This document shows positions 7,117-45,200 of a stretch of 64,000 nucleotides of DNA, in pieces. Origin of the DNA: Frankiaceae bacterium. Its GTDB lineage: Bacteria > Actinomycetota > Actinomycetes > BP-191. Each line of letters starts with the position of its first letter. The stretch's first letter is position 1. The stretch covers positions 124,001-188,000 of the forward strand of contig DATMES010000046.1 in NCBI GenBank assembly GCA_035556555.1, read 5' to 3'. A program made the translations under genes and the position numbers. The notes under the pieces were generated by a model. The model did not search any database. It had not been told where the DNA came from and saw nothing but the letters and a program-made list of their open reading frames with translations.

Positions 7117-7139
7117 AGTCTGGATCAGGGGTGTGACAA
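7117..7139 (-). promoter_or_regulatory. RecA-NDp/PafBC-like promoter of nrdJ: TTGTCACAC-N8-CAGACT
   Basis: On the minus strand TTGTCACAC (7139-7131) is followed after 8 nt by CAGACT (7122-7117). The predicted start near 7110 gives a leader of about 47 nt before the nrdJ ATG. Confidence 0.6.
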
Positions 7140-14502: not shown

Positions 14503-14525
14503 ATGCTGCCTCCCGGGTGTGACAG
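14503..14525 (-). promoter_or_regulatory. RecA-NDp/PafBC-like promoter: CTGTCACAC-N8-CAGCAT
   Basis: On the minus strand CTGTCACAC (14525-14517) is followed after 8 nt by CAGCAT (14508-14503), then 7 nt and ATG 14495. This geometry is identical to the lhr promoter at 42205-42227. Confidence 0.55.
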
Positions 14526-14543
14526 AAACGAACGGGTGTTCGA

Positions 14544-14559
14544 TCGAACGTCTGTTCGC
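14544..14559. promoter_or_regulatory. LexA (SOS) box TCGAACGTCTGTTCGC
   Basis: Matches the actinobacterial SOS consensus TCGAAC-N4-GTTCGA at all but the last base. It lies in the lexA/LysM divergent region. Confidence 0.88.
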
Positions 14560-35764: not shown

Positions 35765-36154
35765 CTACGACTGCCGCGCCGTGCGCTCCTCGTAGACCTC
35801 GACGAGCGTCCGCGCGAGGACGTCGAGCGGCACGCCCTTCTCGACGTACGCCGACGCGCCGCGGGCCCGCGCCTCGCGGCCCAGTTGCAGCTCGTCGAAG
35901 CCGGAGAAGACGACGACGACGCTGTCCGGGGAGCGTTCGAGGATGAGCGGCAGGGCCTCCAGGCCGTCCATCACCGGCATCGACAGGTCGAGCAGGACGA
36001 GGTCAGGCTGGGTGGCGGCGGTCAGGTCGACGGCCTCGGCGCCGTTGCCCGCCTCCCCCACGACGTCGAACGTCCCGCCGATCCGCAGCGAGAGCGCGAC
36101 GAGCTCGCGCATCTCCTGTGCGTCGTCGACCAGCACGATGCGGATGGGCGCCAC
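35765..36154 (-). CDS. Receiver-only response regulator
   Basis: 129 residues: one CheY-like receiver and nothing else. Acidic pocket VLVDDAQEMR, phospho-acceptor Asp in LVLLDLSMPVMDG, Ser/Thr switch near VVVVFSGFDE, Lys in YVEKGVP. GTG 36154 follows the histidine-kinase-like gene by 4 nt, so the two are co-transcribed. With no output domain it must act through protein contacts. Confidence 0.88.
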   Translation of the reverse strand: MAPIRIVLVDDAQEMRELVALSLRIGGTFDVVGEAGNGAEAVDLTAATQPDLVLLDLSMPVMDGLEALPLILERSPDSVVVVFSGFDELQLGREARARGASAYVEKGVPLDVLARTLVEVYEERTARQS

Positions 36155-36158
36155 GGGG

Positions 36159-36770
36159 TCACGTTCCTGCCGGCGCCCTGTCGTCCGTCATGCCGCGCGG
36201 CAGGGCGGGGACCGTACGGACGAGGTCGCCCGGCTCGATCGGCGTGCCGGCGACCGGGTCGACCAGGTCGCTCATCATCGTGCGCGCGGCCGCCAGGGTC
36301 TTGACGACCGCCTCGTGAGCCTTCTCGGGCTCGCCGGCCTCGTACCGGTACTGCGCCAGGGCGAGGCCCTGGACGATGTTGTCGTTGATCTCGAGCGCCG
36401 TACGCTGCCGCGCCTTGAGGTCGGCGAACAGCGTCGGCCCCTGTTGCAGCAGCGCGCCGTAGGAGCGCCGCAGCGTCCAGTAGAAGACCGCCACGCCGGC
36501 GGAGAGAACGTCCCAGACCGCCGCGTGCCAGCCCATCGCGGTGCGCATGGCGAGACCCTCGGTGACCTCCATGCCGGCGTACGGCGCGAGCATGTGCAGC
36601 GTGTGGCTGCCGTGGTGGACGGCGCAGGTGAAGAAGATCATCGCGGTGGCGCCGCCGAGCAGGTTGGTGCGCACCTGACCGGTGCGGATGAGCGCCCTCA
36701 GGATGGCCGCGGCGATGAGCGAGTAGGCGACCATGATGACGCCGTTCGCTGCCGCGGTGACTTGCCACAT
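36159..36770 (-). CDS. Membrane sensor with kinase-like dimerisation helix lacking the phospho-acceptor His
   Basis: 203 residues. Four hydrophobic segments (VIMVAYSLIAAAIL, GGATAMIFFTCAVHHGSHTL, AAVWDVLSAGVAVFYW and flanks) carry several His (VHHGSHTLHML) that might bind a cofactor. A helix follows (ADLKARQRTALEINDNIVQG) that aligns with the HisKA_3 dimerisation box, where ELHD normally holds the phospho-His; here it is EINDN. No ATPase domain follows. ATG 36770 has GGAGG 8 nt upstream. Its operon partner is a receiver-only regulator. Confidence 0.75.
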   Translation of the reverse strand: MWQVTAAANGVIMVAYSLIAAAILRALIRTGQVRTNLLGGATAMIFFTCAVHHGSHTLHMLAPYAGMEVTEGLAMRTAMGWHAAVWDVLSAGVAVFYWTLRRSYGALLQQGPTLFADLKARQRTALEINDNIVQGLALAQYRYEAGEPEKAHEAVVKTLAAARTMMSDLVDPVAGTPIEPGDLVRTVPALPRGMTDDRAPAGT

Positions 36771-36910: not shown

Positions 36911-36933
36911 GTGTCACACCACGCCGTTACGGT
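36911..36933 (+). promoter_or_regulatory. RecA-NDp/PafBC-like promoter: GTGTCACAC-N8-TACGGT
   Basis: GTGTCACAC (36911-36919), 8 nt, TACGGT (36928-36933), then 7 nt to ATG 36941. This is the full geometry seen at lhr, but no annotated gene follows on the + strand. Confidence 0.55.
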
Positions 36934-36940
36934 CCTCCGC

Positions 36941-37174
36941 ATGACCTCCTGAGGAGCGAAAGGGGTGACCGAGGTGGTGAGTCCGATGTGACGGAATCCG
37001 CGGGACACGTTCGCGCTCGCGACGTCCGCGCGCGCCGTTGCTCTCCCTGGCCCGCGTCGGCCTGCCTGCCGCCTCGCGTGCGGCGGGTCGGCCGGCCGGG
37101 TCGGGTCGGGCCGCGGCGCATCCGCCGCGCGGTGCGTCGATCCGTGGAGCGTTCCCGTCCTCTGACGCCGTGCG
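36941..37174 (+). other. Putative damage-inducible orphan transcript with mini-ORFs
   Basis: No ordinary gene is visible in 36771-37174. The + transcript predicted by the promoter at 36911 would start at ATG 36941, encoding only MTS then TGA (36941-36952). A dyad CTCCTGAGGAG follows, then a nine-codon frame from GTG 36965 ending in ATGTGA, which overlaps GTG 36988 of a 76-codon, Arg-rich open frame running antisense into the rny 3' end (to 37218). A regulatory leader, a small basic protein or an sRNA are all possible; I cannot choose between them. Confidence 0.3.
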
Positions 37175-38848
37175 CTACTTCGCGTACTCGGTCGCCCGCG
37201 ACTCGCGGACGACCGTGACCCGGATCTGCCCGGGGTAGGTCAGCTCCTCCTCGACCTGCTTCGCGATGTCGCGCGCGATGACCTGTGCCTGGATGTCGTC
37301 GACCTGGTCCGGGAGCACCATGACCCGGATCTCGCGGCCGGCCTGCATCGCGAACACCTTCTCGACGCCGGGCTTGGCCGTGGCGATCTCCTCCAGGCGT
37401 TCGAGCCGCTTGACGTACGACTCCAGCGACTCGCGGCGCGCGCCGGGACGCCCGCCGCTGATCGCGTCGGCGCTCTGCGTCAGGACCGCCTCGACGGTGC
37501 GCTGCTCGACCTCGCCGTGGTGCGCCTCGATGGCGTGGGCGACGTCCTCGCTCTCGCCGTACTTGCGCGCGATCTCGGCCCCGATGAGCGCGTGGCTGCC
37601 CTCGACCTCGTGGGTGAGCGCCTTGCCGAGGTCGTGCAGCACGGTGCACCGCTTCACCAGCGGGACGTCGAGCTTGAGCTCGGCGGCCATGACGCCGGCG
37701 ATGTGGGCTGCCTCGACGAGGTGGCGGAGGACGTTCTGGCCGTAGCTCGTGCGGTAGCGGAGGCGACCGAGCAGGTTGACGATCTCCGGGTGCATCTCGG
37801 TGATGCCGACCTCGTAGAGGGCGTCCTCCCCTGCCCGGACGACGAGCTGCTCGACCTCGGCCTTGCTGCGCTCGTACATCTCCTCGATGCGCTGCGGGTG
37901 GATGCGCCCGTCGAGCACGAGCTTGTCGAGCGTCAGCCTGCCGACCTCGCGGCGTACCGGGTCGAAGCAGCTGAGCAGCACGGCCTCGGGCGTGTCGTCG
38001 ATGATGAGGTTGACGCCGGTGATCGACTCGTACGCCCGGATGTTGCGGCCCTCGCGGCCGATGATCCGGCCCTTCATGTCGTCGCTCGGCAGGTGCAGCA
38101 CGCTGACCACCGACTCGGCGGTCTGGTCCGTCGCCACCCGCTGGATCGCGAGCGTGACGATCTTGCGGGCGCGTTCCTCGCCGGTCGACTTCGCGTCGTT
38201 CTCGATGTCGCGGACGATCGCGACGGCGTCGCGCTTCGCCTGGTTCTCGATGGCGGCGACGAGCTCGGCCTTGGCGTCGGCGGCGGTCAGGCCGGCGGTG
38301 CGTTCGAGGACGAGGCGGCGTTCCTCCTCGACGTCCTTGAGCTCCTCGCGGCGGCGCGCCAGCTCCGTCTCGGCCTCGGCGAGCGCGTGGTCGCGGGCCT
38401 CGACGCGGCGCTGCTCGGTGTCGATGCGCTCCTCGCGTTCGGCGAGGCGGTGCTCGCGTTCGCCGAGACGTTCCTCCCGCCGGTCCTGCTCGGCGCGGAC
38501 CGCGCGGGCCTCGGCCTCGGCAGCGGCGCGCGCCTCGGCGGCTGCTGTCGTGGCCGCCGTGGCCGCGGCGGCGGCCGCGCTCGCGGCGGCGGCCTCGGCC
38601 TCGCGGCGCAGCGCCGCGGCGGCTGTCTCTGCCGCGGTGCGGATCGCGGCGGCGTCGGCCTCGGCCTGCGCGAGGATCGCGGCCGCGTTCCGATGCGCCT
38701 CGGTCGTGGCCTGCGCCGCCGCGAGGGAGTCCGCCTGGGACGTCGCGGGCGAGGTGATCGGGCCGGCGGCCGTGCGCGACCGGAGCACGAGGAACGCCGC
38801 ACCGACGCCGAGCAGCAGGCCGGCGACGATGCCGAGGACCACGCCCAT
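37175..38848 (-). CDS. rny: Ribonuclease Y
   Basis: 557 residues. Membrane-anchored endoribonuclease starting mRNA decay. N-terminal helix (GVVLGIVAGLLLGVGAAFLVL), long Ala/Glu/Arg coiled coil (about residues 40-210), KH domain (LPSDDMKGRIIGREGRNIRA), HD domain (CTVLHDLGKALTHEVEGSHA, then AIEAHHGEVEQ) and a C-terminal domain ending RVTVVRESRATEYAK. ATG 38848 follows AGGGGAGG. The coiled-coil DNA is very low complexity. Confidence 0.97.
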   Translation of the reverse strand: MGVVLGIVAGLLLGVGAAFLVLRSRTAAGPITSPATSQADSLAAAQATTEAHRNAAAILAQAEADAAAIRTAAETAAAALRREAEAAAASAAAAAATAATTAAAEARAAAEAEARAVRAEQDRREERLGEREHRLAEREERIDTEQRRVEARDHALAEAETELARRREELKDVEEERRLVLERTAGLTAADAKAELVAAIENQAKRDAVAIVRDIENDAKSTGEERARKIVTLAIQRVATDQTAESVVSVLHLPSDDMKGRIIGREGRNIRAYESITGVNLIIDDTPEAVLLSCFDPVRREVGRLTLDKLVLDGRIHPQRIEEMYERSKAEVEQLVVRAGEDALYEVGITEMHPEIVNLLGRLRYRTSYGQNVLRHLVEAAHIAGVMAAELKLDVPLVKRCTVLHDLGKALTHEVEGSHALIGAEIARKYGESEDVAHAIEAHHGEVEQRTVEAVLTQSADAISGGRPGARRESLESYVKRLERLEEIATAKPGVEKVFAMQAGREIRVMVLPDQVDDIQAQVIARDIAKQVEEELTYPGQIRVTVVRESRATEYAK

Positions 38849-39230
38849 CCCGGTTCCTCCCCTCGCCGTCGGCCGTGCGGCGTCGCTGCCGCGCGCGGAA
38901 CGGTGAGAGACCGCGCTGCGTGCTCGCGGCACGGGGCGCCCGTCGTGGACGGGCGGCGTACGAGCGCGGCGGCCGGGGTGTCCGCTCGAGGCGGCCGGTC
39001 GCCGGTGAAGGGTCGAGGTGAACTGTCGGGTGTCGCTATAGGAACCGCGGGCATGCGGGTTGGTCAACTCACCGGCCCCGACGGTAGGGGCGGTGATCTT
39101 GGGGGTCAAGCGCGGCGCCCCCGAGGGGACGCGAGGCGCGGCGCGGCAGCGTCAACGGCGCCATCGCGCCGCCATCCGCGCGACGCGCCGGGGCGCCGGG
39201 GCGCCGGGCGGGGCATTCGGGCGAGGGAGG
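38849..39230. other. Intergenic region upstream of rny
   Basis: 382 bp with no gene. On the minus strand a TATAGC (39040-39035) could be the rny -10, giving a leader of about 180 nt. Near the recX end are repeated GGCGCC blocks (about 39189-39214, GCCGGGGCGCCGGGG pattern) that can fold and may end recX transcription. Confidence 0.35.
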
Positions 39231-41165: not shown

Positions 41166-41188
41166 ACGGTAGGGCGGGGGTGTGACAG
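41166..41188 (-). promoter_or_regulatory. RecA-NDp/PafBC-like promoter of recA: CTGTCACAC-N8-TACCGT
   Basis: On the minus strand CTGTCACAC (41188-41180), 8 nt, TACCGT (41171-41166). The predicted start near 41159 gives a leader of about 32 nt with GGAGG. In mycobacteria the main LexA-independent recA promoter has this architecture (TTGTCRGTG-N8-TAnnnT). Confidence 0.7.
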
Positions 41189-42204: not shown

Positions 42205-42227
42205 TTGTCACACCCCCGGTCCAGAAT
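42205..42227 (+). promoter_or_regulatory. RecA-NDp/PafBC-like promoter of lhr: TTGTCACAC-N8-CAGAAT
   Basis: TTGTCACAC (42205-42213), 8 nt, CAGAAT (42222-42227), then 7 nt to ATG 42235, predicting a leaderless damage-inducible message. Confidence 0.65.
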
Positions 42228-42234
42228 CGGTTCC

Positions 42235-45200
42235 ATGGGTGCACTCGACCGCTTCTCCCCCGCCACGCGCGCGTGGTTCGAGGGGGCGTTCGCCGCGCCC
42301 ACGGCCGCGCAGGAGGGCGCCTGGGACGCGATCCAGAAGGGGTCCAACGCGCTCGTCGTCGCCCCCACGGGCAGCGGCAAGACACTCGCCGCGTTCCTCT
42401 GGTCGCTCGACCGGATCGCTTCGCAGCCGCCACCGGAGAGAGCACGGCGGTGCCGGGTGCTGTACGTCTCCCCGCTCAAGGCGCTCGCGGTCGACGTCGA
42501 GCGCAACCTCCGCGCGCCGCTGACGGGCATCCGCGGCGCGGCGCAACGCCTCGGCACGCCCCCGCCCGACGTCACGGTCGCCGTGCGCTCCGGCGACACC
42601 CCCGCCGACGAACGCCGCCGCTTCGCCACGACGCCACCGGACATCCTCATCACCACGCCGGAGTCGCTGTTCCTCATCCTCACCAGCGCGGCGCGGGAGT
42701 CGCTGCGCGGGGTGGAGACGGTCATCGTCGACGAGGTGCACGCGATGGTCGCGACCAAGCGCGGCGCCCACCTGGCCCTCTCGCTCGAACGCCTCGACGC
42801 CCTCCTCGACGCGCCCGCGCAGCGGATCGGGCTGTCGGCGACCGTACGTCCCCTCGACGAGGTCGCGCGGTTCCTCGGCGGTGCGCGCGAGGTCGAGGTC
42901 GTCAACCCGCCCGCCGCCAAGACGATCGAGCTGCGGGTCGTCGTGCCCGTCGAGGACATGGCCGCGCTCGGCGAGGGCACCGGCGTGACCAGCGGCAGCG
43001 CGGCCGGCGGGGAGGACCGTTCGTCGATCTGGCCGGCCGTCGACGAGCGCATCGTCGACCTCATCGAGGCGCACCGTTCGACGATCGTCTTCGCCAACTC
43101 CCGCCGCCTCGCGGAGCGGCTCTGCGCGAGGCTGAACGACATCGCGTACGAGCGGCGCACCGGCGAGGCACTGCCCGGCGGTCGAGCGCCCGCCGCGCTC
43201 ATGGCGCAGGCAGGCGCCAGCCGCGGCGCCGAGCCCGAGATCGCCCGCGCGCACCACGGCTCGGTGAGCAAGGAGCAGCGCGCGCTCATCGAGGAGGACC
43301 TCAAGGCGGGGCGGCTGCCCGCGGTCGTCGCGACGAGCAGCCTCGAGCTCGGCATCGACATGGGCGCGGTCGACCTCGTCATCCAGGTCGAGGCGCCGCC
43401 GTCCGTGGCCTCCGGCTTGCAACGCGTCGGCCGCGCGGGCCATCAGGTCGGCGCGGTGAGCCGCGGGGTGCTGTTCCCCAAGTACCGCGGCGACCTCGTC
43501 CAGAGCGCCGTCGTCGTGGAGCGCATGCGCAACGGCGCGATCGAGTCGCTGCGCTACCCGCGCAACCCCCTCGACGTCCTCGCCCAGCAGGTCGTCTCGA
43601 TGGTCGCCATGGAGCCGTGGCAGGTCGACGACCTCGTCGCGCTGGTACGCCGCGCGGCACCGTTCGCGACGCTGCCGCAGTCGGCGTTCGAGGCGACGCT
43701 GGACATGCTCTCGGGGCGTTACCCGAGCGACGACTTCGCCGAGCTGCGCCCGCGCGTGATCTGGGACCGCATCTCCGGCACGCTGACCGGAAGGCCAGGG
43801 GCGCAGCGCCTCGCGGTCACGAGCGGCGGCACGATCCCCGACCGCGGGCTCTTCGGCGTCTTCCTCGTCGGCGAGAAGGGCTCGCGGGTCGGCGAGCTCG
43901 ACGAGGAGATGGTCTACGAGTCGCGCGTCAGCGACGTGTTCCTGCTCGGCTCGTCGTCGTGGCGGATCGAGGAGATCACGCACGACCGCGTGCTCGTGAC
44001 GCCGGCGCCCGGGGTGCCGGGGAAGATGCCGTTCTGGCACGGCGACGCCCCGGGGCGCCCTGTCGAGCTGGGACGGGCGCTCGGGGCGTTCCTCCGCGAG
44101 ATGACGCGCCTGTCCGACGACGACGCGCGCGCCCGCGCCGCCGTCGCGGGCCTCGACGAGTGGGCGGCGGCCAACCTCGTCGCGTACCTCCGCGAACAGC
44201 AGCAGGCCACCGCGCACCTGCCCGACGACCGCACGATCGTCGTCGAGCGCTTCCGCGACGAGCTCGGCGACTGGCGGCTGTGCGTGCACTCGCCGTTCGG
44301 CGCGCAGGTCAACGCCCCGTGGGCGCTCGCCATCACGGCCCGTGCCCGCGAGCGGTACGGCGTCGAGGTGCAGACCATGCACTCCGACGACGGCATCGTC
44401 GTACGCCTCCCCGAGACCGAGGAGGCGCCCACCGCCGACCTCGTGCTGCTCGACCCCGACGACGTCGAGCCGCTGGTCCGCGACGAGGTGGGCTCCTCGG
44501 CGCTGTTCGCGTCGCGGTTCAGGGAGTGCGCGGCGCGCGCGCTGCTGCTGCCCAAGCGCAACCCCGGCAAGCGGACGCCGCTGTGGCAGCAGCGGCAGAA
44601 GTCCGCGGTGCTGCTGCAGGTGGCGGGGCGCTTCGGGTCGTTCCCGATCGTGCTGGAGACGATGCGCGAGGTGCTCCAGGACGTCTTCGACGTGCCCGGA
44701 CTGCGCGAGCTGATGGCCGACGTGTCGTCGCGCAAGGTTCGGCTGGTCGAGGTGGAGACGCCGCAGCCGTCGCCGTTCGCGCGGTCGCTGCTGTTCGGCT
44801 ACATCGGCGCGTTCATGTACGAGGGCGACGCACCGCTGGCCGAGCGGCGCGCGCAGGCACTCTCGCTCGACTCCGCTCTCCTGGCCGAGCTGCTCGGCCA
44901 GGCGGAGCTGCGCGAGCTCATCGACGTCGAGGCGATGGCCGAGGTGGAGGTCGAGCTGCAGCGCCTCGCCCCCGACAGGCACGCGCGGTCGGTCGACGAA
45001 GTCGCCGACCTGCTCCGCGTGCTCGGCGACCTCACGACCGCCGAGGCCGTCGAGCGCGGCGCGACACCCGCCTGGCTCGCCGACCTCGAGGAGGCGCGGC
45101 GGGCGATCCGCGTACGCCTCGCCGGCGAGGAGCGCTGGGTCGCCGCGGAGGACGCGGCGCGGCTGCGCGACGCGCTCGGGGTGCCGTTGCCGGTGGGCCT

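Follow-up and report, generated by a model that had tools for sequence, protein, structure and literature searches.

The gap between rny and the minus-strand gene starting at position 36770 of the window, by which we mean the whole 64,000-nucleotide stretch of DNA analysed here, contains a weak, orphan member of the genus-form damage promoters (Table 1). We hold, with about even confidence, that this is an orphan and probably decaying promoter which gives rise to a short leaderless, non-coding plus-strand transcript, and that it is a relic or an accident. Upon damage, RNA polymerase, assisted by an activator of the PafBC type, would initiate at the ATG at 36941 or close to it; the resulting leaderless plus-strand RNA, which would specify no useful protein, would head for the rny 3' end and run into a hairpin rich in GC. 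Most likely, the promoter would be left over from, or have arisen by accident in, the rearrangement by which a two-component pair came to stand after rny. If it is transcribed, the output of a PafBC-type damage response would include a non-coding RNA, and the site would offer a natural test of promoter loss or gain.

Table 1. Positions of the candidate promoter, the associated reading frames and RNA elements, the flanking genes and the recA promoter used for comparison
Feature	Position	Strand	Remarks
GTGTCACAC as read in the candidate	36911-36919	+	read back from the sequence
TGTCACAC box, genus form of the damage-promoter box	36912-36919	+	about -29 to -22, centre about -26, if the start is the ATG
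Spacer CACGCCGT, 8 nt	36920-36927	+	without the C run found at most other sites
-10 box TACGGT	36928-36933	+	sequence and genome pattern scan
Predicted transcription start at ATG; leaderless ORF ATG-ACC-TCC-TGA (MTS)	36941-36952	+	ATG 36941-36943, TGA 36950-36952
Dyad CTCCTGAGGAG over stop and SD-like GAGGAG	36946-36956	+	chance-level
Nine-codon ORF (8 residues and stop), ending in GTGA overlap	36965-36991	+	GTG 36965 to TGA 36991
76-codon Arg-rich open frame, judged non-coding	36988-37218	+	starts with GTG 36988
Long imperfect hairpin, stable mainly as plus-strand RNA	37010-37148	+	folding
rny (RNase Y), convergent with the plus-strand transcript	37175-38854	-	start approximate
Sensor-like protein (ETR1_N-like N-terminus, weak HisKA_3)	36162-36770	-	absent here in congeners
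Response regulator receiver, paired with the sensor-like protein	35765-36154	-	
recA promoter TGTCACAC-N8-TACCGT	41166-41187	-	comparison site, same window

A preliminary description of this DNA had placed a damage-type promoter, chained mini-ORFs, a dyad and a 76-codon frame in the gap, and on reading back the sequence we recovered every one of them at the coordinates given there. The assignment to a damage-type promoter is well founded, as box and spacing equal those of the window's own recA, upstream of which we read CTGTCACAC-N8-TACCGT, and as the genome-wide set of such sites is rich in repair genes. The exact pattern TGTCACAC-N8-TANNGT has 19 matches in the 3.98-Mb genome as compared to none for the reversed control and none in simulated order-2 Markov sequence totalling 8 Mb, and thus occurs beyond chance; the two congeners contribute 12 and 7 matches. 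Seven of the 18 other sites in the genome precede genes marked by Pfam as repair or nuclease genes (RecA, UvrA, UvrB, RadA-like, RNase_T plus GIY-YIG, PDDEXK_1 and DUF222-HNH, the name RadA-like being assigned from the domains of the protein), six precede genes for ribosomal S6, an acyltransferase, MMPL, an ABC transporter, peptidase M1 and a short-chain dehydrogenase, and the genes behind the remaining five have no Pfam match. Scans with the sigma-70 and terminator consensus sequences gave no match. A LexA SOS promoter would have a box of the form GAAC-N4-GTTC; three such boxes are present in the window and none lies inside the gap. Two of these boxes are found at 14503-14557, beside a minus-strand TGTCACAC box, and a frame some 113 codons long follows. 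Elsewhere in the window, a minus-strand TGTCACAC box at 7117-7138 is separated by 53 nt from a frame of some 937 codons which by eye looks like a B12-dependent ribonucleotide reductase, and at 42206-42237 (plus strand) TGTCACAC-N8-CAGAAT is followed 7 nt later by an ATG opening a 1525-codon frame, which begins with a DEAD helicase domain and looks Lhr-like by eye.

The candidate resembles the mycobacterial PafBC-dependent promoters (RecA-independent, RecA-NDp or recA P1), for which the consensus tTGTCRgtg-N8-TannnT is given (PMC5656591, in extract), in having a box, an 8-nt spacer and a TAnnnT element. The box would be centred at about -26 if the start is the ATG, and PafB reads the mycobacterial promoter near -26 (PMC11804915, in extract). 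The likeness extends to the targets, recA and repair genes, and to the presence in the genome of an adjacent pair of WYL proteins, of which the one searched has WYL and WCX domains and which by eye resemble PafB and PafC. Unlike in mycobacteria however, where the box is TGTCRGTG, this genus has TGTCACAC in its place, with a C run after it at most sites, and the candidate has no coding sequence after it. The candidate is absent among the matches to the classic RecA-NDp consensus TTGTCRGTG-N8-TANNNT with up to three mismatches. TGTCRGTG-N8-TANNNT has 2, 5 and 0 matches in the three genomes of the genus and 4 to 52 in seven others of the class, and a scan of 118 genomes of the class with TGTCACACC-N7-TANNGT yielded 50 matches, of which the three genomes of the genus account for 38 and nine others for the remaining 12. 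We infer that PafBC recognises the TGTCACAC box in this genus, and the shift of the box possibly reflects a changed specificity of the activator. This by-product of the analysis matters more than the candidate itself: the box has moved from TGTCRGTG to TGTCACAC(CCC) with position and repair targets kept, which makes the evolution of the DNA specificity of an activator testable.

Within this promoter class the candidate ranks low. We scored 38 sites from the three congeneric genomes with a leave-one-out profile; all of them had been picked by the core pattern, so that the ranking reflects spacer and flanks. With a score of 19.8 the candidate ranks 37th of the 38, and no position in the 8 Mb of simulated sequence reaches 15. 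It has the genus-form core TGTCACAC-N8-TANNGT, and its ATG lies 7 nt past the -10 box, within the 6-8 nt at which 23 of the 37 other sites carry an ATG or GTG, so that the leaderless start predicted in the preliminary description fits the set. Of these 23 start codons, 22 open frames of at least 100 codons and one opens a frame of 47 codons; the other 14 sites have a frame of at least 80 codons within about 140 nt. The candidate lacks the C run in the spacer and the A/T run just upstream, its own upstream A run being displaced by one base and a G standing directly before the box. It also fails to drive a gene: it is the sole site of the 38 with no gene-like frame behind it, as all other 37 have one within about 140 nt (at site L036 judged by eye, since the listed frame there appears to be out of register and uvrA was assigned by eye). 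The low rank, the missing C run and the shifted A run are what would be expected of a promoter in decay. Against a relic speak that no trace of a lost gene could be recognised and that the boxes of two sites in this genome, L017 and L029, are comparably weak and yet are followed by genes; moreover, with a single genome to go by, decay and recent origin would look the same.

But might the site be a mere chance match to the genus promoter that is never used? Its weak spacer and upstream context and the missing gene would both be accounted for in this way. However, neither the simulated sequence nor the reversed genomic control yielded one exact match, and the ATG sits at exactly the usual distance, which leads us to regard a chance match as quite unlikely.

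Does the putative transcript encode a protein? There is no plausible gene between rny and the minus-strand gene starting at 36770, just as the preliminary description had it when it called the gap apparently gene-less. Codon scores are negative in all six frames of 36934-37174, and codon analysis finds no coding signal in the chained mini-ORFs either. The 76-codon frame, which extends 41 nt antisense into rny (rny stop codon at 37175-37177), has a GC content by codon position of 0.77/0.81/0.73 as opposed to 0.66-0.79/0.41-0.53/0.94-0.99 in six genes of the window, and its codon log-odds of -0.64 compare with +0.40 to +0.68 for the same six genes, whose scores are somewhat flattered as the codon table was trained on them. 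A Pfam search with its translation gave no match, and a search of 40 relatives returned, besides the genome itself, two weak matches (39-43% identity), neither of them in a congener. The small basic damage protein that had been proposed for this frame thus finds no support in composition, codon use or relatives, and the translational-coupling leader proposed alongside it has no gene downstream to which it could be coupled. Then again, the arrangement is not without parallel. The ATG at the predicted 5' end and the GTGA overlap of the second and third ORF are like the leaderless and RTGA-coupled ORFs of mycobacteria (PMC4633059 and PMC9094748, both in extract), and coupled small ORFs are real in these organisms (PMC4633059, in extract). 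Different from these, the first ORF has only three codons and falls below the range of 5-50 residues by which small ORFs are defined in PMC4633059, and no annotated gene is available for coupling. Leaderless small ORFs have moreover been argued to be widely translated by chance (PMC9094748, in extract), and by that argument the MTS ORF is consistent with chance translation. A coding product, be it a chain of leader peptides or the 76-residue basic protein, therefore strikes us as highly improbable in spite of the RTGA overlap and the SD-like spacing in the sequence, given that the codon signal is missing in every frame, that the long frame enters rny antisense and that the relatives offer little that resembles it.

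The RNA itself gives more reason for hesitation. The dyad for which a pairing with the ribosome site had been suggested is indeed there, but it folds no better than its shuffles (z -0.55, 55 of 200 equally good), and the first 70 nt have an ordinary fold. Further downstream, the stretch 37000-37149 folds as plus-strand RNA with -101.3 kcal/mol and a z of -3.14, and none of 200 shuffles is as stable, whereas the minus strand gives a z of -0.33. The 57 pairs in this 150-nt stretch consist of 45 GC, 10 GU and 2 AU pairs. At four offsets around the hairpin the plus-strand z values are +0.9, -3.7, -3.1 and -4.0, and over 36940-37174 the plus strand has a z of -2.16 (4 of 200 shuffles equally good) and the minus strand of the whole gap one of -0.16. 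Because the hairpin stretch was selected after its fold had been seen, these values serve as a lead only. When the window is cut into 852 tiles, a z of -3 is reached by 27 of them irrespective of GC content but by none of the 138 with a GC content of at least 0.78, and a strand difference of at least 2.8 occurs in 4 of 426 tile pairs. Taken as a whole, the evidence for RNA structure is suggestive only. The hairpin, which lies about 27-165 nt beyond the rny stop codon, may end the plus-strand transcript, transcription of rny, or both.

One could read these data as a functional damage-induced sRNA of about 210 nt, with a leaderless start at 36941 and the hairpin as its body or end, that acts in trans or on rny. 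The damage-type promoter, the strand-specific stability of the fold and its standing among tiles of similarly high GC content are in favour of such an RNA, and the plus-strand hairpin, for which three of the four offsets gave z values between about -3 and -4, exceeds what a plain relic would need. However, the post hoc choice of the stretch and the number of tiles and tile pairs that do as well weaken the argument; in addition, a scan for T-run terminators found none, Rfam at gathering score had no match across the 64 kb, and neither the two congeners nor the search of 393 genomes showed conservation. A tRNA search also came up empty. We consider an sRNA with a function unlikely. Doubtful too, in our estimation, is a stand-alone damage-inducible, leaderless and structured RNA gene at about 36941-37150 that uses a PafBC-type promoter and was born or captured next to rny in this one species; if true, this RNA gene would be a non-coding member of a regulon in which the 37 other sites examined all precede gene-like frames. 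The titles and abstract openings of the literature searched mention no PafBC-dependent small RNA, and one may still have been published. We continue to favour an orphan promoter with a non-coding transcript as described at the outset.

Comparison of the locus with other genomes is compatible with a rearrangement. In both congeners a different gene, which we take to resemble the VOC/glyoxalase family, starts within about 30 nt after rny, and it is followed by what by eye is the same gene as follows the response regulator here (MDMPI_N domain). In the present genome the VOC-like gene is missing from the locus and the pair of sensor and response regulator occupies its place. A relocated copy was sought, and the best match in the same genome, on another contig, has 50% identity and is no clear orthologue. 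The sensor-like protein has an ETR1_N-like match with an E of 0.0064, which is below the cut-off, is without an ATPase domain in Pfam, and has a lone receiver as its partner. Searching the gap DNA against 393 genomes gave matches at E <= 0.001 in 165, and among the matches listed, the window itself excluded, all but one fall towards the 3' end of the gap, where GC content is high, and we read them as composition noise. The exception, in genome G314, covers the promoter over 41 nt at 85%; it is contained in a permease-like frame of 516 codons on the opposite strand, has neither box nor spacing, and was dismissed as chance. Comparison of the gap with 105 loci returned similar noise and weak matches of the box to other damage promoters of the genus. 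Judged by these searches, the gap appears to be specific to this species among the genomes compared and to have no convincing DNA relative. The preliminary description had held that it would be contradicted by the absence of a plus-strand transcript together with a lack of conservation of promoter and reading frames between species; at this locus promoter and frames are unconserved in the two congeners, but there the DNA itself is absent.

The layout would in principle allow the promoter to tune its neighbours upon damage, either by convergent transcription that lowers rny or through a divergent arrangement affecting the sensor/response-regulator pair, as the plus-strand promoter converges on rny and faces away from the minus-strand pair. 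We consider such tuning very unlikely, however, as the layout was found in no second genome and the pair is missing at this place in both congeners. Homologues of the sensor were found at 46 loci, 19 of them with a response-regulator match just downstream (several in Nocardioides), and none of the 46 has a match to rny within the DNA examined around it.

Finally, a minus-strand leaderless frame of 47 codons at another of the sites (L016:1353-1493) has a CxxC near its start, a strong damage box upstream and no Pfam match; as a candidate small damage protein it is to be preferred over what is found at 36911-37174.
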